DNA of 64,000 nt from an uncultured Paraglaciecola sp. (GTDB lineage Bacteria; Pseudomonadota; Gammaproteobacteria; Enterobacterales; Alteromonadaceae), in the NCBI RefSeq assembly GCF_937123705.1, contig NZ_CAKZKO010000038.1:1-64000 (forward strand), read 5' to 3'. The notes below the pieces were generated by a model. The model searched no databases. It was not told the DNA's origin and worked only from the letters and a program-made list of their open reading frames with translations. The translations under genes were made by a program, and so were the position numbers. Shown here piece by piece: positions 30,532 to 63,373 of the stretch; positions within the stretch are counted from its first letter, which is position 1, and every line of letters begins with the position of its first letter.

Positions 30532-31461
30532 TTAATATTTCACTGGAGAAACAAAACCTTCTGGCTTAATAGTTAAAACATCACAATTTAGTTTGTCAAT
30601 TACATGCTCGGCTGTGTTTCCAATCAGAGCCGCAGAAATACCTTGCCTGCCCACGGTGCCTAGCACCACCAACTCAGCATCTAATTGTTGCGCATACTTA
30701 GGAATGACATCTTCTGGCAATCCAACGTCAACATGGCAATATTGCGTGCCAATATGGTGTCGAGCACTATGTTGTTGCATACTTTGTTCATGATGCTTCT
30801 TAGCGGATTCATCATAAGCAGTTGGATCAAATTCAGGGATCTCAATAACAATGTTAGCGGGGGTACCTGGGTAGGAGTTAACTAAGTGCACATTGGATGA
30901 TAATAATTTAGCAAAATGCAATGCTTGTTTAGTGATCTCTTCATTTAATGATATGTGTTCCTCTAGATCGCCTCCTAGGTTGACTGCTGCTACTATTTGA
31001 CCGTGTTTCGGCCAATCGTGTTCTTTTACTAACAACACTGGGACAGGTGCTTTACGCATAATATGCCAGTCGGTAGGGGTAAAAATAACAGACTTTAAGG
31101 TATCGTGTTGCTGAGTACCTTTAACAATCAAGTCGTATCCTTTGTCTATCACTTCATAAATAATGCTTTCGTAAGGCCTATTGTGCCATACAATTTTGAC
31201 GTCAATGCTTATGCCTTGGGTACGAAATTTATCTGAGACCAAATTCACTAGCCATTCAGTTCTTTCATCAATCACTGCTTGGCGCATGTTTTCACGTTCG
31301 TCCATCGACAACATAGTGGTCATTTCGTAGGAAAAATCATAAATAGTTAAAAAAGCAGTAATGCTTGCACCGTTAATGTTGGCCATTTCAATGGCACGAG
31401 CAAGAGATTTTTGGGTAGACTGTTCTGGCTCAATAACGGCTAATATTTTTTGATAATTCAT
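30532..31461 (-). CDS. uspE: tandem universal stress protein UspE
   Basis: 309 residues with two Usp domains in tandem: ILAVIEPEQSTQKSLARAIEMA...PVPVLLVKEHD (1-150) and VAAVNLGG...VVLGTVGRQGISAALIGNTAEHVIDKLNCDVLTIKPEG (about 160-300). UspE is linked to motility, adhesion and survival under stress and is normally next to fnr. Here the gene immediately upstream is the SafE-like gene; no fnr is present between them. Confidence 0.93.
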   Translation of the reverse strand: MNYQKILAVIEPEQSTQKSLARAIEMANINGASITAFLTIYDFSYEMTTMLSMDERENMRQAVIDERTEWLVNLVSDKFRTQGISIDVKIVWHNRPYESIIYEVIDKGYDLIVKGTQQHDTLKSVIFTPTDWHIMRKAPVPVLLVKEHDWPKHGQIVAAVNLGGDLEEHISLNEEITKQALHFAKLLSSNVHLVNSYPGTPANIVIEIPEFDPTAYDESAKKHHEQSMQQHSARHHIGTQYCHVDVGLPEDVIPKYAQQLDAELVVLGTVGRQGISAALIGNTAEHVIDKLNCDVLTIKPEGFVSPVKY

Positions 31462-31569
31462 AGTACAGCCCTAAATAGCTAAGCGAAGAGTTTTAGTAAG
31501 TTTATGAAATTAATTAAAAATTTACCAGTTATTAGGCTCGTTTAAGGATTAAGGGTAAGATAACTTCGA

Positions 31570-32241
31570 TTAGTTTATCGACGCTGATATGGCTTGAATT
31601 AATTGTATTGTGGCAAATATTATAAGCAGTAGTCCCATCAGCACTTTTGTTTTTGGGTGTTGCAATAATTGTTGCGATTTTTTGAAGCCCGTAGCCATTA
31701 ATATCATTATGGGTAAGGTCCCCAAACCAAAGCCAGCCATAATTATTCCGCCCTGTAGTGCTGAGCCACTCGCTAACGACCAAGTTAATACCGAGTATAC
31801 TAATCCGCATGGCAACCAGCCCCAAATCATGCCGTAGGGCAGGGCATACAATGGGTGTTTAAAAGGTAGTAGCCTTTTTGACCATGGGCGGATCAGTTGC
31901 CAGAATCCACTACCAATTCTTTCTATCTTAGTCAGCCCCTGCCACCAACTTGCTAAATACAAGCCAAGTGAAAATAAAAATATACCACTAACAAATTGTA
32001 AAACGACTATGCCTTGATTTATTTGTTGAGCGAATAAGTAACCCGCCCAACCCGTGATTGCCCCCGCTATCATATAGCTGCAAATGCGCCCCAGGTTATA
32101 GGTTAAGGTATAAGGCAAAACCGCTGCATTTTTAGGGATTGCATAAGCAAAAGCGCCCACAATACCACCGCACATACCAACGCAGTGTACGCCACCTGCA
32201 AGGCCAATGAGTATTGCAGAAAAAAAACTTAACTCATTCAT
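31570..32241 (-). CDS. SafE/TauE-like (COG2836) membrane protein of the cbb3 oxidase locus
   Basis: 223 residues, about six membrane helices, with the metal-binding-like motif GGVHCVGMCGG near the N-terminus and WGWLPCGLVYS in the middle. This is the CcoS-associated COG2836 protein often labelled sulfite exporter TauE/SafE. Its Cys/Met/His motifs suggest copper handling during cbb3 oxidase assembly, but this is inference. The start ATG 32241 overlaps the stop of ccoS (ATGAATGA). Confidence 0.85.
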   Translation of the reverse strand: MNELSFFSAILIGLAGGVHCVGMCGGIVGAFAYAIPKNAAVLPYTLTYNLGRICSYMIAGAITGWAGYLFAQQINQGIVVLQFVSGIFLFSLGLYLASWWQGLTKIERIGSGFWQLIRPWSKRLLPFKHPLYALPYGMIWGWLPCGLVYSVLTWSLASGSALQGGIIMAGFGLGTLPIMILMATGFKKSQQLLQHPKTKVLMGLLLIIFATIQLIQAISASIN

Positions 32242-32425
32242 TGTCGGAGGGGCTATTTTCTTTGGCAGCGGTGTTTTTTTGGGGAAGATCGTCGTCAAAT
32301 AAAATGCTGCTGCCGTGACGCTCGAGATCTTCAAATTGATTGGATCTCACAGCCCAAAAAAATGCGCCTATTGCGATACATACCAGTAAAATGGCCAAAG
32401 GTATTAGTACATAAATGATACTCAA
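32234..32425 (-). CDS. ccoS: cbb3 oxidase assembly protein CcoS
   Basis: 63 residues, one membrane helix (VLIPLAILLVCIAIGAFFWAV) followed by the CcoS signature RSNQFEDLERHGSSILFDDD. It is required for cofactor insertion into cbb3 oxidase in other bacteria. It follows ccoI by 12 bp in the same operon. Confidence 0.94.
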   Translation of the reverse strand: MSIIYVLIPLAILLVCIAIGAFFWAVRSNQFEDLERHGSSILFDDDLPQKNTAAKENSPSDNE

Positions 32426-32437
32426 AACGTCAAGTTC

Positions 32438-34807
32438 CTACTTTAAAAGCCTAATGGAATTCATAACCACAATAAACGAGCTTAGTGACATACCAACTAC
32501 TGCCATCCAAGGGCTCAGCAAACCTGTTACTGCTAAAGGTAACACTAATAGATTGTATCCCACCGCCCAAGCTATATTTTGAATGATTTTTTGTTTGCAA
32601 CGTTTAGCTATGGAAAACACTAAAGTAATTTTATCCAATGAATTGTCTAATAGGATCACGTCGGCGGATGATTTGGCTAAATCGGATCCTGCGCCTAAGG
32701 TCACAGATACATCGGCTTGTGCCAATACCGGACCATCATTAATGCCGTCTCCTACCATTAGCACTACATGTTGATTGGCTTGCGCTTGATGGATCACATC
32801 TAGTTTATCTTGGGGAGTTTGCTGCGCTAACCAATGTGGTAACTGTAGTGAGTTGGCTACTTTACTCACCATCTCTGGAATATCACCGCTGAGCAAAGTG
32901 ATATGTTTGGTTTTAAGTTTAGCTACTAAATTAACACTGCTAGTCCGTAGTTTGTCGACTAATAAAAATCCACAAACCACCTGTTGTCCCTTTGCTAGAA
33001 ACACATTGCAATTATGCATCTGACTAGGAGTATCAAGTCCGATAAAGTGCATTGAGCCCAATTTATAGTTATCACCATTAATATTTCCTGTTATGCCTTG
33101 CCCTATGTGGGCAGAAAAATTCGTTACGGCATAACTACATGGGGTATCGGCAAAAGCATTGGCGATGGGATGAGATGAGTACTGCTCAAGGCTGGCGGCA
33201 ATTTCTAAGCATTGTTGTTTATCTTGTTCTGGCTGACAAAGACAAGCAGCTAAGCTAAATTTTCCCTCTGTAAGGGTGCCCGTTTTGTCAAGTGCTATCC
33301 AGTCCACTTGAGATATTTGCTCTAGGGCGTCAGCACGTTTTAGTAATACACCTTGGCTGTTTAAATTTGCTACTGCACATGACAAAGCCGATGGTGTAGC
33401 CAAACCTAAGGCACAAGGGCAGGTGGCAATAAGGATTGAGATAGTGATCCACAAAGCTTGGGCTTCATCTATTTGTAACCAGACAATATAACTACTAAGG
33501 GAAATCACTAATACGGCCATTACAAAGTATTGTGAAAATTGATCGGCTAAGCTGGCGATTTTGGGTTTACTTAATAGTGCTTGGTTTTGTAACATACTGA
33601 TTTGGTTCAGCATTGAGCTTTTTAAAGGCTGTGTTACTTTGATATTTAAGGTGCCTAATTGATTAACTGTACCAGCAAAAACGGTTTGCCCCATAGATTT
33701 ACTGACTAAGTGAAACTCGCCAGTTAACATCGCTTCATCAAACTGACCTTCACCAGTTACTATCACCCCATCTACAGGTACCATTTCCCCCGTTTTAACC
33801 AGTACGTTTTGTCCAATGACTAAGGACTTTGCCAATACAGGCGAGATATGGTCGCCCTCAATTAAATTAGCTGTGGTGGGCATATATTCTAACATGTTAG
33901 CTGAGAGCTGAGACGCTTTATAACGGGCGTTGTGCTCTAAGTAGCGGCTAATTAACAATAAAAATACAAACATACATAAGGATTCAAAGTAGGTTTGTCC
34001 ACTGTGTTGAATGGTGGCGAATACGCCCGAGACATAAGTGATCGTTAAAGCTAACACTATGGGCACATCCATATTCACAACTTTGGCGCGAAGTGCGCGA
34101 AATGCGCTGGCATAAAACTCAGAAGCGGAATACAGCATCACAGGAGTGGTTAACAGTAAGCTTGTCCAATTAAAATATTGCTTAGTTTGAGCGTCGATAT
34201 GCCCGAATAAATCAAAAAACACCCCAATATTTAGCATCATAACTTGCATGGTCATTAAGCCCGCCAAGCCTAATCGCTTTAGAAATGCTTTGTTTTCTTG
34301 CCTGTAGCTGGCTTCGTGTTGTTCTGCTTGAAAAGGTTTGCCATGGTAACCAATGTTTTCAATATGGCTTAAAATTTCGCTGAGTTTTAGCTGTTGGCTG
34401 TCCCATACTACTGTGGCACGTCTGGCCGAAACATTTACGCCCACTTTTAATATGCCATGCAACTTAGCCAGTTGTTTTTCGATTAACCAGCCACATGCAG
34501 CACAATTGATACCGCTTATAGTAAGTTGAATTTCGCACCTATTGTCTTGGCTCTCAACAAATTCTTGCAGGATACTGTCGTCATCGAACACCTTGAGAGT
34601 GTGTAATAACTCTGCTTCGTTTTCTGAAGCTTTATCTGCAAATTCACTACGATAGTGATAGTAATCTTCGAGGCCGTTATTGACGATGGCCTCGGCTACG
34701 GCACAACACCCTGGGCAACAAAAAGCTTGCCGTTTTCCTGATACAGTTGTGTGATAGTTAAGTTGTGGCGCCACATCTAAACCACAGTGAAAACACTTTG
34801 TAAGCAT
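32438..34807 (-). CDS. ccoI: copper-transporting P1B ATPase of the cbb3 locus
   Basis: 789 residues. Cys-rich N-terminus (CFHCG, CCPGCC), heavy-metal domain ISGINCAACGWLIEKQL, phosphatase/actuator TGE motif (MLTGE), membrane metal site TCPCALGLATPSA, phosphorylation motif DKTGTLTEG and hinge MVGDGINDGPVLAQADVS. This is FixI/CcoI, which exports Cu(I) across the inner membrane for the CcoN copper site. It is transcribed with ccoH upstream and ccoS downstream. Confidence 0.95.
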   Translation of the reverse strand: MLTKCFHCGLDVAPQLNYHTTVSGKRQAFCCPGCCAVAEAIVNNGLEDYYHYRSEFADKASENEAELLHTLKVFDDDSILQEFVESQDNRCEIQLTISGINCAACGWLIEKQLAKLHGILKVGVNVSARRATVVWDSQQLKLSEILSHIENIGYHGKPFQAEQHEASYRQENKAFLKRLGLAGLMTMQVMMLNIGVFFDLFGHIDAQTKQYFNWTSLLLTTPVMLYSASEFYASAFRALRAKVVNMDVPIVLALTITYVSGVFATIQHSGQTYFESLCMFVFLLLISRYLEHNARYKASQLSANMLEYMPTTANLIEGDHISPVLAKSLVIGQNVLVKTGEMVPVDGVIVTGEGQFDEAMLTGEFHLVSKSMGQTVFAGTVNQLGTLNIKVTQPLKSSMLNQISMLQNQALLSKPKIASLADQFSQYFVMAVLVISLSSYIVWLQIDEAQALWITISILIATCPCALGLATPSALSCAVANLNSQGVLLKRADALEQISQVDWIALDKTGTLTEGKFSLAACLCQPEQDKQQCLEIAASLEQYSSHPIANAFADTPCSYAVTNFSAHIGQGITGNINGDNYKLGSMHFIGLDTPSQMHNCNVFLAKGQQVVCGFLLVDKLRTSSVNLVAKLKTKHITLLSGDIPEMVSKVANSLQLPHWLAQQTPQDKLDVIHQAQANQHVVLMVGDGINDGPVLAQADVSVTLGAGSDLAKSSADVILLDNSLDKITLVFSIAKRCKQKIIQNIAWAVGYNLLVLPLAVTGLLSPWMAVVGMSLSSFIVVMNSIRLLK

Positions 34808-34812
34808 GGTGC

Positions 34813-35319
34813 TTAGGGGTTAAGGTCAAATGGGCGAGTTTGGGGCAGGGCCACTATTTTTTGAATTTTCCAACTAGCATCATAAGGATGCAAGCTTAGT
34901 TTCCACTTACCCGCTATATCATTGGAAAGAGGCCCGCGGTATACACCTTTAGCATCACGTAATAATGTCACTGAAAAATCTTTAAACTCTTGAGTAGAAT
35001 GAAAAAACTCTAAGAGTAAGGCTTCACCACTTGTTGGCGCACCACTAGTAAAGGTAACGGTGACAGAGTCTGCCGACACATGGGTTTTTGTTGCAATATT
35101 GAGCACTTTTGCTTGTTGTAACTTCTGTATCTGTAGATTAATGCCTTTGCCTTCTTTGTAATAGTCGTCGATAACCATACTATCTTCGCTGTTAAAGGCA
35201 AAATTCAGCATGGTAAAACTCAGCACCATAGAAGTAAGTGGCACAATAATCAAAAACCAAGGCCAGAACTGTTTATACCAAACTTTTGGACTGTCAGACT
35301 GCATACAAAAACGACTCAT
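34813..35319 (-). CDS. ccoH: CcoH/FixH-family cbb3 assembly protein
   Basis: About 168 residues. An N-terminal membrane helix (FWPWFLIIVPLTSMVLSFTMLNFAF) is followed by the FixH signature DYYKEGKGINLQIQK and a beta-rich periplasmic domain ending in SLHPYDASWKIQKIVALP. CcoH stabilises assembled cbb3 oxidase. The start is not certain: ATG 35319 or ATG 35304, neither with a clear ribosome site. It is separated from ccoP by a terminator hairpin, so read-through or a separate promoter must supply ccoHIS. Confidence 0.88.
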   Translation of the reverse strand: MSRFCMQSDSPKVWYKQFWPWFLIIVPLTSMVLSFTMLNFAFNSEDSMVIDDYYKEGKGINLQIQKLQQAKVLNIATKTHVSADSVTVTFTSGAPTSGEALLLEFFHSTQEFKDFSVTLLRDAKGVYRGPLSNDIAGKWKLSLHPYDASWKIQKIVALPQTRPFDLNP

Positions 35320-35342
35320 ATTTAAAAGGAACAAAACATAAA

Positions 35343-35365
35343 AAAGCCCCGAAATCGGGGCTTTC
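35343..35365 (-). terminator. terminator or attenuator between ccoP and ccoH
   Basis: On the minus strand AAAGCCCCG-ATTT-CGGGGCTTT is followed by a T-run. It divides the oxidase structural genes from the assembly genes. Confidence 0.8.
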
Positions 35366-35382
35366 AGTATACCACTTATCTA

Positions 35383-36339
35383 CTATTTGTCTTGGGATAG
35401 GCTGTAAACATAAGCCGCCACAAGATGTACTTTTTTCTCACCTAAAGTGTGCTTAAATGACGGCATAACGCCATTACGGCCATAGGTAAGGGTTTGAGTA
35501 ATTGCCTTATTAGTGCCACCGTATAACCATGTTTGGTCTGTTAAGTTAGGGGCGCCAAGCATTTGATTGCCTTTACCGTCTTGGCCATGACAAGCTGCGC
35601 AAATAGCGAACTTAGCTTGGCCGGCATCAACCATAGTCTTATCGAGATCTGGACGATTGCTTAAACTTAGAACGTAAGCCACTAGTTCGTCTATACCTTT
35701 TTCACCCATAGCATCTAATTGCGCAGGCATCATACCTTGACGACCATTAATGATAGTTTCGGTAATTTTTTCAGGAGTGCCGCCGTATAACCAATCATTA
35801 TCAGTTAAATTTGGAAAGCCTCGTTGCCCACGAGCATCCGAACCATGACATTGTGAACAATTTTGGCTAAACAAGCGTTGTCCTACCTTTAATGCCTCGG
35901 GATCTTTAGCTAATTCAGGAATAGGTTGTTGATAATAGCCATCAAAGATAGGCGCATAGGTGGCGTTAGCAAATTCAATTTCTCTATCATATTGATTGAT
36001 TACACCGTTAGTTTTATTCGCCTCAACTGCGGCTCTCGATTCGGCCAAAGACTTAATGCTTTGGTTAGAGCTCTGCCATTTCCACAGGCCAGTATAGTTA
36101 CCCAATCCAGGATATAAAACTAAGTACACTAGACCCCAAACGATACAAATATAAAATAAGAAAGTCCACCACTTAGGTAGTTGGTTATTGAGCTCGACAA
36201 TGCCATCAAATTCATGATGCATATCGTCGCCTTCTTTAACACCGGTTTTGTTTTGTAAACACCAGCGTAGTAAAAGATAACAACCTAAAATTGAACCCAG
36301 CGTAATAACCGAGATCCATACACTCCAAAAACTACTCAT
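35383..36339 (-). CDS. ccoP: cbb3 oxidase dihaem subunit CcoP
   Basis: 318 residues. Two N-terminal membrane helices, then two class I cytochrome c domains with CSQCHGSD and CAACHGQD and distal Met segments (GMMPAQLDAMG, GVMPSFKHTLG). It carries electrons from cytochrome c to CcoO in the periplasm. Its start overlaps the end of ccoQ by 8 bp. Confidence 0.96.
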   Translation of the reverse strand: MSSFWSVWISVITLGSILGCYLLLRWCLQNKTGVKEGDDMHHEFDGIVELNNQLPKWWTFLFYICIVWGLVYLVLYPGLGNYTGLWKWQSSNQSIKSLAESRAAVEANKTNGVINQYDREIEFANATYAPIFDGYYQQPIPELAKDPEALKVGQRLFSQNCSQCHGSDARGQRGFPNLTDNDWLYGGTPEKITETIINGRQGMMPAQLDAMGEKGIDELVAYVLSLSNRPDLDKTMVDAGQAKFAICAACHGQDGKGNQMLGAPNLTDQTWLYGGTNKAITQTLTYGRNGVMPSFKHTLGEKKVHLVAAYVYSLSQDK

Positions 36340-36526
36340 TTACTTTAGACTCCTGCTTATCAACTTTAGTCTTTTGCTTATGTTGCTGGGGCTCATCATC
36401 GAAGATGAGCTTTTCGGCCTCGTCAAAATTTGATTTTGATTTCTTGCTAAAGGCCCAGATTACAATTCCAATAAAGCTTACAAACACTATTACTGTGTAG
36501 ATACTGCCACTCGTTGCATAATCCAT
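36332..36526 (-). CDS. ccoQ: cbb3 oxidase subunit CcoQ
   Basis: 64 residues: MDYATSGSIYTVIVFVSFIG begins with a single membrane helix and is followed by a charged tail (KKSKSNFDEAEKLIFDDEP), the usual CcoQ pattern. The correct ATG is 36526; the longer open frame upstream overlaps ccoO and is not used. It stabilises the interaction of CcoP with the complex. Confidence 0.92.
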   Translation of the reverse strand: MDYATSGSIYTVIVFVSFIGIVIWAFSKKSKSNFDEAEKLIFDDEPQQHKQKTKVDKQESKVNE

Positions 36527-36527
36527 A

Positions 36528-37133
36528 TTATTGCAACGCCGTGCCAAGTGACTGTAAATAGGCGATAAGCGCAACCATTTCGGTCTTACCTTTAACTGCT
36601 TGTTTCGAGCCGGCAATATCTTCGTCTGTATAAGGCACACCAAAATCTCTAAATACTGAGAGTTTCTTTGCTGTTAACTCACCGTCTAAAGTGTTTTCCA
36701 TTAACCAAGGAAATCCAGGCATATTTGACTCAGGCACCAGGTCTCTTGGATTGATCAAATGAATTCGGTGCCAATCATCACTGTATCGTCCGCCAACTCG
36801 GGCTAAATCAGGTCCGGTACGCTTAGAGCCCCATAAAAATGGGTGTTCCCATACTGATTCGCCGGCGACTGAATAGTGACCATAGCGTTCGGTTTCAGCA
36901 CGAAAAGGACGGATCATCTGGCTATGACACCCAACGCAACCTTCTCGAATATATATATCTCGGCCTTCCATCTGCAGGGCTGTGTAGGGTTTTAAACCAT
37001 CAACAGGCTCCATGGTTTGTTGTTGAAACATCAATGGTGTAATTTGTGCCATGCCGCCCAAACTAATTGCCACTAAAATTAAAACACTCAACAGACCCAC
37101 ATTTTTTTCAATTAACTCATGTGCATTTTTCAT
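36528..37133 (-). CDS. ccoO: cbb3 oxidase monohaem subunit CcoO
   Basis: 201 residues. One N-terminal membrane anchor and one cytochrome c domain with CVGCHSQM (about 62-69), followed by [19 protein letters not shown] and [29 protein letters not shown], all conserved in CcoO/FixO. It passes electrons to the CcoN haem b. Confidence 0.97.
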
Positions 37134-37145
37134 TGTCTGTCTTCC

Positions 37146-38579
37146 TTAAGCCGTTTGTGCTGTTGGTTCAATTGCGGGTTCTTGCTCTTCGTTCCTGATG
37201 GTTTTGTAAACGTTATAAGCCATAAGTAACATGCCGACCAAAAATATTGCACCACCGATAAATCGCACTAAATAGAAGGGCTTGGACGCCTCTAGAGACT
37301 CTACAAAACTGTAGGTTAGCGTGCCGTCGGCGTTAATTGCTCGCCACATCAAGCCTTGTAGCACACCGGACATCCACATCGCTACTATATATAACACAGT
37401 GCCAATAGTGGCTAGCCAAAAATGAACATTAATCAGCTCAATACTATGCATTTTGGTTCGATTGAACAAAACAGGGATAAGGTGATAAATAGAACCAATA
37501 GACACCATAGCTACCCATCCTAAGGCACCAGAATGTACATGACCAATAGTCCAATCCGTATAATGAGACAAGGCATTTACGGTTTTTATCGCCATCATTG
37601 GCCCTTCGAAAGTAGACATGCCGTAGAAAGACAGCGAAACCACTAAGAAACGTAAGATGGGATCGGTACGTAACTTATGCCATGCGCCAGATAGGGTCAT
37701 TATGCCGTTGATCATGCCGCCCCAAGAAGGTACGAATAAAATAATAGACATCACCATACCCAAAGATTGTGTCCAATCGGGTAGGGCAGTGTAATGAAGA
37801 TGGTGAGGACCAGCCCAAATATACAAGGAAATAAGCGCCCAAAAATGCACGACCGATAAACGATATGAATACACGGGGCGTCCTGCCTGCTTAGGTACAA
37901 AATAATACATCATGCCTAAGAAACCTGCGGTTAAGAAAAATCCAACGGCATTATGCCCGTACCACCACTGGATCATGGCGTCCACGGCGCCTGCATAGAT
38001 AGAATATGATTTAGTCAGAGAAACCGGAATAGCCATACTGTTTGCGATATGCAGTACAGCAACCGTTAGCATAAATGCCCCAAAGAACCAGTTGGCTACA
38101 TATATGTGAGAAACTTTTCTGATGACCATTGTTCCGAAGAAATTAATGATATAAGCCAACCAAACTAAGGTGATTAAAATATCAATAGGCCACTCAAGTT
38201 CACCATATTCCTTGGTGCTCGTTAATCCCATGGGTAAAGTAATAGCGGCTAATACAATAACAAGTTGCCAGCCCCAAAACGTAAATGAAGCCAGTTTGTC
38301 GCTGAACAACCTAACATTTGAAGTACGTTGCACCACATATAATGACGTTGCAAACAAAGCACATCCACCAAAGGCAAAAATCACTGCATTGGTATGCAAA
38401 GGTCTTAACCTAGAAAATGTTAGCCATGGCGTATCAAAATTTAATGCTGGCCAATATAACTGTGCGGCAATTAATACCCCTACAGCCATACCAATTATTC
38501 CCCAAACTACGGTCATTACCGCAAATTGCCGAACTACTTTATAATTGTATTCGGGATGTACTTGAATAGCTTCACTCAT
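37146..38579 (-). CDS. ccoN: cbb3 cytochrome oxidase catalytic subunit CcoN
   Basis: 477 residues, about 12 membrane helices. Haem and copper ligand histidines are visible in [42 protein letters not shown] (Cu-B His with the cbb3-type Tyr), [13 protein letters not shown] and [14 protein letters not shown]. It reduces oxygen at very low concentrations and pumps protons. First gene of ccoNOQP. No perfect FNR box is seen in the 170 bp upstream, which is unusual for this operon. Confidence 0.97.
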
Positions 38580-59826: not shown

Positions 59827-60480
59827 ATGCAAAATAATCAAGTTACAGCAGGGATGGCCTCACCTATGGTGCATGTGGTTGACGACGATAACGCTGTTTT
59901 AGACTCTGTTGGTATGTTGTTAGACAGCATTGGCATAAATAACAGCTGTTACAAAGATGCCCAAGTATTTTTAGAGGCCTACGAGAAATCTGAATTTAAT
60001 AAGCAGAATGGATGTATTTTATTGGATATTAGAATGCCCATTATCAGCGGCATCGAATGTCAACATAGATTAGTGCAAATGGGCTGTAGTTTGCCTATTA
60101 TTTTTGTCTCTGGTCATGGTGATGTTCCCACAGCTGTTGAAGCGATGAAACACGGCGCAGTGGAGTTTATTCAAAAACCTTTCAGAGATCAGGTTTTGAT
60201 AGACGCTATCCAAAAGGCTTTACAAGTGAACGCCTCTGAGCAACAAAAGCTCGAAAAAATTAAGCAGACCCGTGCAAAAATTGCCTTACTTACCGCACGC
60301 GAGACCCAAATACTCAAAGCCGTAGTATTAGGTAAAGCTAATAAAGTGATTGCCATTGACTTGCATTTAAGTCAAAGAACCATAGAAATTCATCGAGCCA
60401 ATGTGATGGAGAAAATGCAAGTTAAGTCTTTGGCTGAATTGGTTAAAGTGGTGATTGATGCTGGCCCAATTGATGTATAG
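59827..60480 (+). CDS. FixJ-type response regulator
   Basis: 217 residues. Receiver domain 14-130 with VDDD, phospho-acceptor Asp67 (GCILLDIRMP), Ser in FVSGHGDVP and Lys in FIQKPF; C-terminal LuxR-type helix-turn-helix with LTARETQILKAVVLGKANKVIAIDLHLSQRTIEIHRANVMEKM. Typical of FixJ/TtrR/NodW regulators. It is 18 bp after the FixL-like kinase, its presumed partner, and lies close to the NO reductase gene it might control. Confidence 0.93.
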   Translation: MQNNQVTAGMASPMVHVVDDDNAVLDSVGMLLDSIGINNSCYKDAQVFLEAYEKSEFNKQNGCILLDIRMPIISGIECQHRLVQMGCSLPIIFVSGHGDVPTAVEAMKHGAVEFIQKPFRDQVLIDAIQKALQVNASEQQKLEKIKQTRAKIALLTARETQILKAVVLGKANKVIAIDLHLSQRTIEIHRANVMEKMQVKSLAELVKVVIDAGPIDV

Positions 60481-60621
60481 CGAATACCGCTTTAGATAAA
60501 TACTTGTATTTACGTATAAATGCTTATTGCTGAGTTCATAGGCGTACACCCATAATAATCTTATTGAAAATTTAATTTCTGAAAATATCAAAGCACTGCA
60601 ACAGTGTAAACTAGGTTATAG

Positions 60622-61014
60622 ATGGTGTGCCAAATCAAAGTAGTTGATAAACCTATAGTGTATATAGTCGACAGTGATCCAAAGTTACGACGTTCACTGT
60701 CAGAGCAGTTAAGTGTACATAATGTGTTAGTGGAAGTATTTGACTCAGCAGAAACTTTTTTAACGAGTAAATTGAAAAATAGAGCCGCCTGCCTAATTGT
60801 TGAAGAAAACTTACCCTGCATGAACGGCATCGCATTACTCGAACATATCAATAGTTTAGGGTTTAGACTACCTACTTTTGTTCTATCTTCTGATTGTGAT
60901 CTATCAAAAGCCGTTCGTGCCATGCAAGCCCAAGCGATAGATTTCATTGAAAAACCTTTTATAGAAAAGACTTTGATATCTGAAGTGATGAATGTACTAC
61001 CAAAGCAGTCTTAA
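60622..61014 (+). CDS. stand-alone FixJ-like receiver with Glu at the phospho-acceptor position
   Basis: 130 residues, receiver domain only. It keeps the acidic IVDSDP, the Ser of FVLSSD and Lys111 of FIEKPF, but the expected Asp in the beta-3 strand is Glu61 (ACLIVEENLP against CILLDIRMP of the adjacent FixJ-type protein). Glu at this site often mimics phosphorylation, so it may be constantly active or phosphorylation-independent. There is no DNA-binding domain; it could compete with the neighbour for the kinase. It lies 141 bp downstream of the FixJ-type gene in the same direction. Confidence 0.85.
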   Translation: MVCQIKVVDKPIVYIVDSDPKLRRSLSEQLSVHNVLVEVFDSAETFLTSKLKNRAACLIVEENLPCMNGIALLEHINSLGFRLPTFVLSSDCDLSKAVRAMQAQAIDFIEKPFIEKTLISEVMNVLPKQS

Positions 61015-61102: not shown

Positions 61103-63373
61103 TTAATTAATCTTTTCTGCTGGCTTAAATGCCCGAAACACAAACCACACAAAAGCACACACCCCCACACTAAACACTATATCACCAGGCACACGTGCCC
61201 ATACTAACGCTTCCATAATGGGGCTATGCATTAACTCCGCCGAACGAGCATAGAAATACCCTTGATCGATACTTACATAGGTTTGAATAACTCCTTGGGG
61301 TAGCAGTGATAAAAATGTCATCATAGCAAGGCCAATATTAAGAGACCAAAACGAGACTTTTAGCAGTTTTTCATTCCAAAAAGCGGTATTGGTTAGGCCC
61401 CGTAAACAATACAGAGTGAGTCCCAACCCGAGCATACCGTACACACCAAACAGCGCTGCATGGCCATGATTGGCTGTGGTATTCAGACCTTGCATATAAT
61501 AAAGCGCAATAGGTGGATTAATCATAAAGCCAAACAGCCCTGCCCCAACAAGGTTCCAAAACAGCACTGCGGCGAAGAACATAAAAGGCCAATGGTAGTT
61601 TTGCTCCCATTGCGCTACATGCTCAACTTTGTAGCGGGTATAGGCTTCAAAACCAACCACCAGCAAAGGCACTACTTCTAGGGCTGAAAACATCGCACCT
61701 ACTGCAATAACAGATGTGGGTGTGCCACTAAAATACAAATGGTGGAAGGTGCCAAGAACGCCACCGAATAAAAAGATAATTGTGGCAAATAGCACCATCA
61801 CTGTGGCGGTGGATTTACGTAAAATGCCCATGCGCACAAAGAGTAAAGAAATAATAGCCGTGGCAAATACTTCAAAAATGCCTTCTACCCAAAGGTGGAC
61901 TACCCACCAACGCCAATACTCCATAATGGCAATATGGGTATGTTGCCCCCACATTAACCCCGCTGCATACAATAATCCTATGGCAATAGCCGACACCAAA
62001 ACTAAGTAAATCAGTGACTTTCCGCCTTTTTGCTGCATCACAGGCCATAATCCTCTTAGCACTAACGCTACCCAAAGGAATAACCCGATGGTAAGGTAAA
62101 TCTGCCAAAAACGACCAAGATCGACATACTCATAGCCTTGATGACCAAACCAGAAATTCATCGTTAGATCGCTAAAGAATCTATGCACTGCCGCCCACTG
62201 TCCGGCAAATGAACCTATTACAATGATCAGCAAACTAAAAAACAGAAAGTTTACCCCAAATCGTTGTAACTTAGGCTCGCGGCCTCCCATCATAGGCGCA
62301 ACATAAAGCCCCGTGGCCAACCATGCAGTAGCAATCCACAGCACTGACAACTGAGTATGCCAGGTACGGGTAACTGTGTAAGGTAAATACTCAGCAAACG
62401 GCAGACCATAGAGTCCTTGGCCTTCTACAGCGTAATGAGCTGTGATAATGCCAAGCAATACTTGGGTCAAAAATAAGGCACTCACCACCCAGAAATACTT
62501 AGCCGTAGCGCGCATTGAAGGAGTAATAGTGGCGCTATCGAGCATGTCTGATTTTGCGATACCTGATTCAGGCAAGGCGTTTTCTCGCCACACATCAAAT
62601 TGCTTGGCGTAATAAGCCACCAAAGCCCCCGCTCCTGCTAGCAATAAGATAACTGAAGCGATACTCCACATTAGGTTGTCGGTAGTAGGCTTATTGCCTA
62701 CTAACGGTTCGTGGGGCCAGTTACTGGTATATGTAATATCCTTGTTAGGGCGATTGGTTGTGGCACCCCATGCGGTCCAAAAATAGAATGCAGATATGTG
62801 TTTGGCTTCCTCTGCTGAAAGTAAACCATGTACCGGAAACGCATAATCACGGCGCAGCGCAAGCGACGCTGGATCGCTGCCCTGATATAATCTAGAAAAA
62901 TGAGCTTGTACTTGTTTGATAGCCTTAGCGCGGAGATCGCTTACCGTTATTGTGCCACTTGCCTTATCATAACGATTAGTACGCATCTCTTCTATTAATG
63001 CGGCTTTTTGCATTGCCATATTTTGCGTTTCAGAAAGCCCTAGCATGGGAGATTGGAGCTGCAGGTTTAACAGGTTTTCAGCTTCACGATGTAGCCATTC
63101 AGCACTCCAATCGGGTGCCAAGTAGCTTCCATGTCCCCAAATTGACCCTTGCTCCATGCCACCGATTGACTGCCAGACGTTTTGCCCCGTTTCTATATCA
63201 TTACGGGTATAAAGTACTTCCCCAGAAGAAGACACAACTTGCTCGGGTATAGGGGGGGCTTTTTGATAAATCTCAGCGCCTAGAAACAGCAATATACTGA
63301 ACATGGCAATCATACCTAAGCTCAGAATGATCCATAACCGTTTGATGCTAAAGGTTTCTTGGTAGGTTTTCAT
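61103..63373 (-). CDS. norB: quinol-dependent nitric oxide reductase (qNOR)
   Basis: 756 residues, the length of single-subunit NorB/NorZ with the N-terminal extension. The extension carries SSSGEVLYTRNDIETGQNVWQSIGGMEQGSIWGHGSYLAPDWSAEWLHRE; the core has about 12 further helices with the haem and Fe-B ligands (TRTWHTQLSVLW, WVVHLWVEGIFEVFATA, GTFHHLYFSGTP, ANHGHAALFGVYGML). There is no separate NorC, so it takes electrons from quinol. It reduces NO to N2O, probably for detoxification as no other denitrification genes are seen. An FNR/DNR-type box lies 117-130 bp upstream. Confidence 0.96.
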   Translation of the reverse strand: MKTYQETFSIKRLWIILSLGMIAMFSILLFLGAEIYQKAPPIPEQVVSSSGEVLYTRNDIETGQNVWQSIGGMEQGSIWGHGSYLAPDWSAEWLHREAENLLNLQLQSPMLGLSETQNMAMQKAALIEEMRTNRYDKASGTITVSDLRAKAIKQVQAHFSRLYQGSDPASLALRRDYAFPVHGLLSAEEAKHISAFYFWTAWGATTNRPNKDITYTSNWPHEPLVGNKPTTDNLMWSIASVILLLAGAGALVAYYAKQFDVWRENALPESGIAKSDMLDSATITPSMRATAKYFWVVSALFLTQVLLGIITAHYAVEGQGLYGLPFAEYLPYTVTRTWHTQLSVLWIATAWLATGLYVAPMMGGREPKLQRFGVNFLFFSLLIIVIGSFAGQWAAVHRFFSDLTMNFWFGHQGYEYVDLGRFWQIYLTIGLFLWVALVLRGLWPVMQQKGGKSLIYLVLVSAIAIGLLYAAGLMWGQHTHIAIMEYWRWWVVHLWVEGIFEVFATAIISLLFVRMGILRKSTATVMVLFATIIFLFGGVLGTFHHLYFSGTPTSVIAVGAMFSALEVVPLLVVGFEAYTRYKVEHVAQWEQNYHWPFMFFAAVLFWNLVGAGLFGFMINPPIALYYMQGLNTTANHGHAALFGVYGMLGLGLTLYCLRGLTNTAFWNEKLLKVSFWSLNIGLAMMTFLSLLPQGVIQTYVSIDQGYFYARSAELMHSPIMEALVWARVPGDIVFSVGVCAFVWFVFRAFKPAEKIN

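Follow-up and report, generated by a model that had tools for sequence, protein, structure and literature searches.

The fixL-fixJ-psREC locus of Paraglaciecola sp.

The stretch of DNA analysed here, called the window (64,000 nt, Paraglaciecola sp.), carries a gene for a stand-alone receiver protein, here named psREC for pseudo-receiver, located 141 bp downstream of a fixJ-like gene that itself follows a fixL-like gene, all three on the same strand (Table 1). The psREC product consists of the Response_reg domain alone (PF00072, E 2.8e-16, residues 13-122), and the Pfam search found no output domain. The product of the fixL-like gene is 39% identical to Sinorhizobium meliloti FixL over 360 aa, and its His89 and Arg109 align with two residues of the S. 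meliloti haem pocket, which we take to be the haem ligand and the haem-pocket Arg. The top NCBIfam match is FixL for the kinase (357.5 bits, below the curated cut-off of 850) and FixJ for the response regulator (225.2 bits, below the curated cut-off of 255). The recognition helices of the psREC-linked FixJs are similar to those of S. meliloti FixJ. The neighbours form a putative haem-type FixL/FixJ oxygen-sensing pair, with oxygen as the presumed signal of the kinase. At one related locus (L182 5567-6686, genome G001) the fixL match is split over three frames, with fixJ and psREC intact; the kinase gene may be broken there, or the sequence may contain errors.

The gene downstream of psREC encodes a NorB-type nitric oxide reductase, and a perfect FNR-type box lies about 117 bp upstream of its start. 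FNR-type sites with at most one mismatch number 15 in the window, against 4.8 expected. A cbb3-oxidase cluster, with genes for a COX1-type subunit, FixP/CcoP, a metal ATPase, a DsbD_2-type protein and Usp proteins, is found about 20 kb from fixLJ, and an ANR-like sequence lies near it.

Table 1. Positions of the genes, codons and predicted sites in the window
Feature	Positions	Strand	Basis
FixL-like PAS-HisKA-HATPase kinase, 393 aa	58627..59808	+	profile matches, alignment to S. meliloti FixL
FixJ-like response regulator with LuxR-type HTH, 217 aa, active site intact, Asp67	59827..60480	+	profile matches, alignment, tree
Predicted FixJ-like operator TACGTATAAATGCTTA, 31 nt past the fixJ stop	60511..60526	+	comparison with the S. 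meliloti site
Predicted -10-like hexamer CATAAT, 24 bp past the operator	60551..60556	+	23-24 bp spacing in 8/8 loci examined
psREC, aspartate-less pseudo-receiver, stand-alone, 130 aa	60622..61014	+	ORF (exactly these positions, ATG to TAA), Pfam, orthologue alignment, structure model
Asp17-Ser18 codons at the site of the Mg-binding acid pair, the second of which is lost	60670..60675	+	alignment
Glu61 codon (GAA), phospho-Asp position	60802..60804	+	alignment
Lys111 codon, conserved pocket Lys	60952..60954	+	alignment
NorB-type nitric oxide reductase	61103..63373	-	
Perfect FNR-type box TTGATCTACATCAA	63490..63503		
cbb3-oxidase cluster	30532..38579		
ANR-like sequence TTGATAACGGTCAA	38958		

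The phosphorylation pocket of psREC

In the alignment, Glu61 of psREC falls opposite Asp67 of the adjacent FixJ and opposite the phospho-Asp of S. meliloti FixJ, confirming the substitution reported in a preliminary description of this DNA, which had been made from the letters of the window. That description had asked whether orthologues carry Asp at this site. None of the 14 other orthologues does, and Glu is found in 15 of 15 with the window included, ruling out a sequencing error or a quirk of the strain. The orthologues are those of the window, of 12 other Paraglaciecola genomes, of G544 (an uncultured gammaproteobacterium) and of L043 (an uncultured proteobacterium); the orthologue of genome G012 is incomplete and was omitted from the tree alignment, in which the Glu count is 14/14. 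Asp occupies the same site in the 20 FixJ receivers with which psREC was aligned (20/20), in all of another 23 FixJ-type receivers, in all four other stand-alone receivers and in S. meliloti FixT1.

The other active-site residues, which the preliminary description took to be kept, are so in part: Asp17, Lys111 and Phe108 are retained in the window psREC, but the second acid is Ser18, the switch Thr is Ser89, and the FixJ loop G-H-G-D reads S-D-C-D. The same pattern runs through the family. The first acid is present in 14 of 14 readable rows, whereas only one of the 14 has an acid (Asp) at the second position, the others having His (6), Ser (3), Gly (3) or Pro (1). Among the 15 orthologues, the switch residue is Ser in nine and Ala in the remaining six, and the pocket Lys is Lys in 14 and Arg in one. 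The replacement of the phospho-Asp in 15/15 places psREC among the aspartate-less receivers, and the absence of Asp in 15/15 together with the loss of the second acid in 13/14 readable rows places it outside the phosphorylatable response regulators. Judged by its alignment, psREC is an aspartate-less pseudo-receiver and not merely a receiver locked on, with a pocket damaged beyond the Asp-to-Glu change. Phosphorylation of the usual kind is not expected, because the Asp is a Glu and the Mg-binding pair is broken.

According to PMC4395418, the residue that most often replaces the Asp of aspartate-less receivers is Glu (26%), and just 29% of these receivers have an acidic residue at the second acid position. 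As in psREC, aspartate-less receivers and pseudo-receivers mostly retain the first acid and the Lys and have often lost the second acid, as described in parts of PMC4395418 and PMC12632262. Since Glu is the commonest replacement, and since changes also affect both the Mg pair and the switch residue, Glu61 may be structural; the suggestion that it mimics the phosphorylated state and makes psREC constitutively active is conjectural.

Distribution, linkage and selection

A scan of 395 genomes of the family identified psREC in 13 of the 22 Paraglaciecola genomes listed and in none of the 373 others; the 13 genus members scored E 1.7e-49 or better, and the next matches listed started from 5e-31, in ORFs of at least 203 aa. 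In the class, one of 368 others, G544, carries the gene (E 2.4e-51, next match 3.9e-35), and scans of the order and the phylum at E 1e-36 gave no further psREC (0/393 and 0/397 others). These scans are overlapping samples in which the best candidates of each genome were scored. The L043 orthologue was taken from a named sequence collection. The family is narrow, comprising Paraglaciecola plus two uncultured proteobacteria. The whole frame is present in 14 of the 15 orthologues. In the exception, the metagenome-assembled genome G012 (L014 / L041 / L188), the 5' part is lacking, by rearrangement or an assembly fault, and a search of its contig gave no complete fixJ match.

All 13 related loci retrieved with a complete psREC (L177-L187, L192, L043) share with the window the order fixL-fixJ-psREC, and psREC lies 3' of fixJ in all 14 loci containing both, window included. 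The two are separated by 99-143 bp in Paraglaciecola, by 216 bp in G544 and by 106 bp in L043. Two genomes, G009 and G010, have fixLJ without psREC.

In a FastTree phylogeny of 62 receivers, the psRECs are monophyletic (support 0.99, n=14) and divide into clade A, which includes the window, and clade B (0.98 and 1.00); the same two clades are recovered among the adjacent FixJs (1.00 and 0.92). L043 and L192 fall outside both clades in the psREC and in the FixJ rows, pairing only in the latter, and the branching order within clade A is not the same in the two sets. The FixJ of G010, a genome devoid of psREC, groups with clade B, suggesting loss of psREC there. The proposed partnership of psREC with the FixL/FixJ-like pair is well supported by the conserved adjacency, by the matching major groups of the two gene trees and by a predicted FixJ-like site in part of the family. 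dN/dS values of 0.06-0.24 (NG86, 13 pairs, several with saturated dS) indicate that psREC is under purifying selection. A simple recent duplication of the adjacent FixJ was considered and rejected: identity is 28%, and on the tree psREC clusters with FixJ receivers other than that of its own locus.

Promoter elements upstream of psREC

The FixJ site of S. meliloti is TAAGTAATTTCCCTTA (Kurashima-Ito 2005, as quoted in a passage of PMC4999443). A FixJ-like site is present at seven of the 14 psREC loci, namely six of clade A and L192, and a weaker one at an eighth, L043. The six clade A loci share the block TA[CG]GTA[TC]AA[AT]T[CG]CTTATT, 2-31 nt past the fixJ stop. In the seven loci the arms TANGTA-N6-CTTA match at 9/9 positions, a score reached by 0-2 of 500 mononucleotide shuffles at each. 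The L192 site, TAGGTATATTCCCTTA, is identical to the S. meliloti site at 13/16 positions (1 of 1000 mononucleotide shuffles). At L043, 11/16 positions agree (3 of 1000 shuffles), with only 6/9 in the arms (132 of 500).

Over the full 16 bp, identity of the six clade A gaps to the S. meliloti site is no better than in shuffles (200 to 768 of 1000). The window operator agrees at 9/16 positions, every match lying in the arms, and the best full-length match of the window gap, on the opposite strand, reaches 10/16 (768 of 1000 shuffles). As this identity does not exceed that of shuffles, support for the predicted operator of the window comes from its arms, from the footprint and from the spacing to the -10 element. 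A -10-like hexamer, with 4 or 5 of 6 positions of TATAAT, follows the operator by 23-24 bp in 8/8 loci, a regularity seen in 0 of 20000 shuffles, and in 0 of 3000 when any spacing was allowed. Because the core and the spacing were picked after inspection of the alignments, and because the loci of clade A are related to one another, L192 and L043 provide the more independent evidence. Of five related fixLJ loci devoid of psREC, four were examined, and all four have neither a FixJ-like site nor an FNR-like palindrome within 400 nt past fixJ. The promoter suggests that psREC is under the control of FixJ, whose binding to it is predicted.

The six clade B loci (L180, L183-L187) do not have this site, their best cores matching at 6 or 7 of 9 positions, which is chance level. 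In 6/6 of them TTTGATCYAGCGCAA is found exactly 19 bp before TATAT[CT]. In the three clade B genomes searched whole (G006, G007, G016) it occurs exactly once each, at psREC, and the genome search did not find it in G000. The sequence looks like an FNR/FixK-type palindrome, but the position that it implies departs by about 3 bp from the spacing usual for FNR. FixK reportedly acts upstream of fixT in S. meliloti. The tally of loci is then 8/14 with a FixJ-like operator and -10 spacing (one of them weak) and 6/14 with the FNR-like palindrome.

A putative feedback regulator of FixLJ

According to PMC7078487, FixT blocks FixL autophosphorylation, no phosphorylation of FixT itself was observed, and FixLJ induces its expression, in Caulobacter. 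Like psREC, FixT of S. meliloti and of Caulobacter crescentus is a single receiver domain alongside a FixLJ system; its induction by FixLJ is reported in that paper, whereas for psREC it is presumed. S. meliloti FixT1 also lies directly 3' of fixJ and has lost the acid pair. A second precedent, from passages of PMC9430884, is Osp of Rhodobacter sphaeroides, which inhibits CckA as FixT does FixL. Osp is likewise an unphosphorylated receiver-like protein, with the acid pair lost and expression driven by the pathway's own regulator, but it keeps the Asp, lacks the Lys and targets CckA rather than FixL, as far as that text goes.

By analogy with these proteins, the best-supported reading is that psREC may act in the manner of FixT, as a feedback regulator driven by FixJ that damps the FixLJ oxygen pathway, a proposal to which we give an about even chance of being right and which does not imply FixT identity. 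psREC would be a dedicated third component of the haem-type FixL/FixJ oxygen-sensing system. FixL would phosphorylate FixJ, FixJ would activate the promoter in the gap past fixJ, as the operator and -10 architecture suggest, and psREC would accumulate. Presumably devoid of the usual phosphorylation, it would damp the pathway by protein contact, most likely by acting on FixL autophosphorylation; the kinase is favoured over the FixJ dimer as target by precedent only (FixT, Osp). The outcome would be negative feedback on oxygen signalling, a sign of regulation that we infer. The reading is weakened by the 6/14 loci that have TTTGATCYAGCGCAA and no FixJ-like site, by the poor arm match of L043 and by the clade A gaps, which do no better than shuffles over the full 16 bp. 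Should psREC be such a brake, FixL inhibitors of the receiver type may have evolved more than once.

Conserved surfaces and alternative readings

An AlphaFold2 model of psREC (mean pLDDT 82.6) has five strands and five helices, in the arrangement of a receiver fold, and its best PDB match is 3kto_C (TM 0.83/0.89). The model cannot separate the active from the inactive shape, phosphorylated (1d5w) and unphosphorylated (1dbw) FixJ scoring alike. 3KTO, a receiver of Pseudoalteromonas atlantica, is a psREC orthologue that shows no difference from the G006 protein over the matched segment. It falls in clade B: its second acid is replaced by His, its switch residue is Ala, and its beta3-alpha3 loop has two additional residues. 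Passages of PMC4395418 list it as an unpublished, uncharacterised aspartate-less receiver and give for it no function and no FixLJ connection.

Helix alpha1 is the usual kinase-docking helix of receivers, and the alpha4-beta5 face is used for FixJ dimers. Pairwise identity among the 14 psRECs is high in beta4 (0.75), alpha4 (0.70), beta5 (0.80) and the beta5-alpha5 loop (0.74) and low in alpha1 (0.35) and alpha5 (0.39), and residues 97-112 hold 10 of the 21 invariant columns. Compared with alpha1 of the partner FixJ, that of psREC gives 0.28, which is no resemblance. On these alignments, the kinase-docking helix of psREC has drifted and most of the FixJ dimer face is retained; FixT1 of S. meliloti (L118 17332-17724, minus strand) shows the reverse, with a FixJ-like alpha1 and a missing alpha4 region. 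The poor conservation of alpha1, in contrast to that helix in the adjacent FixJs (0.75), and its lack of resemblance to the partner's speak against FixJ-like docking on FixL. The drifted helix and the kept dimer face thus temper the reading of psREC as a FixL inhibitor and leave room for a decoy that binds FixJ.

The preliminary description had already offered a decoy role, and we retain it as an unlikely rival, since the alpha4-beta5 face is the conserved one. Glu61 would hold psREC in an active-like shape, and psREC would pair with FixJ~P through alpha4-beta5-alpha5 and, having no DNA-binding domain, strip it off the DNA. The best conserved parts of psREC and the cluster of invariant columns, next to a relaxed alpha1, fit this role. 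However, the same regions are conserved in the adjacent FixJ receivers (alpha4 0.80, beta5 0.86, beta5-alpha5 loop 0.96), so that the signal is partly inherited, and alpha5 itself is poorly conserved in psREC (0.67 in the FixJs).

A further proposal, which we hold to be unlikely, is that in this lineage FixL (as a haem kinase), FixJ and psREC form a self-contained oxygen module, in which psREC would be the sole conserved target of FixJ and would set the dynamics of the sensor through the FixJ dimer face and not by kinase docking, independently of FixT and through another surface. If this were true, the main product of the regulator would be a non-phosphorylatable copy of its own receiver.

Genome searches for the operator bear on another alternative, to us quite unlikely, that FixLJ chiefly makes psREC and that psREC governs another partner independently of phosphorylation. 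An exact TASGTAYANNNNCTTATT is found at psREC in 7/7 genomes searched, with one extra exact site, in G017. A genome search for the operator that allowed one mismatch added one site, with 3 in the reversed control. The exact pattern TANGTA-N6-CTTATT has 27 sites in six genomes, and the psREC promoter alone recurs in 6/6; two other recurring pairs of sites fall inside ORFs of 403 and 193 aa. TANGTANNTTCCCTTA is exact in two of 10 genomes, once in G544, at psREC, and once among the nine others, elsewhere in G013. These recurrences favour an output role, but the total matches lie below those of reversed-pattern controls (27 vs 40 and 2 vs 5), and the pattern was derived from the psREC promoter itself, so FixJ targets with divergent sites would escape it.

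That psREC is a true FixT orthologue in a gammaproteobacterium is very unlikely, even with its place directly 3' of fixJ, the same size class, the missing output domain and the degenerate pocket. On the tree psREC sits among the FixJ receivers and is separated from S. meliloti FixT1, which is represented by one very long branch, so that its placement is weak. FixT1 retains the Asp, has Ala-Ala for the acid pair and is without the alpha4 region that psREC has, and the psREC profile missed it at E 1e-3; the comparison covers S. meliloti FixT1 only. In two Caulobacter loci (L056, L088), none of the genes next to FixJ was recognised as a FixT. Identity with the Fe-S type of FixT was rejected in the absence of a 4-Cys motif such as that of Caulobacter FixT: psREC orthologues conserve Cys57 alone (13/15), and Cys3, Cys66 and Cys92 of the window each occur in 1/15. 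Least credible of all is that psREC is what is left, decaying or neutral, of a duplicated fixJ, or that its sequence is in error; the truncated G012 orthologue might suggest this, but the low dN/dS, the invariant Glu, the whole frame in 14/15 and the conserved promoter architecture already contradict it.

psREC differs from other aspartate-less receivers and pseudo-receivers in that it stands alone and is linked to a single two-component locus whose promoter elements are conserved. In searches of one literature library, we found nothing linking Paraglaciecola with FixL, Pseudoalteromonas atlantica with FixJ or aspartate-less receivers with FixL, and nothing on a pseudo-receiver with an Asp/Glu change as a single-domain response regulator; among papers on FixL, FixJ and FixT plus Gammaproteobacteria, none is apparently about such a protein. 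The switching of bacterial pseudo-receivers is said in part of PMC12632262 to remain a mystery. Here it is directly testable, because a likely kinase, regulator and promoter lie in one short locus and an orthologue has a crystal structure.

Seven other loci (L060, L086, L092, L097, L103, L105, L111) carry a different stand-alone receiver directly 3' of FixJ, with Asp in all seven, and the four of these receivers placed on the tree form a separate group.
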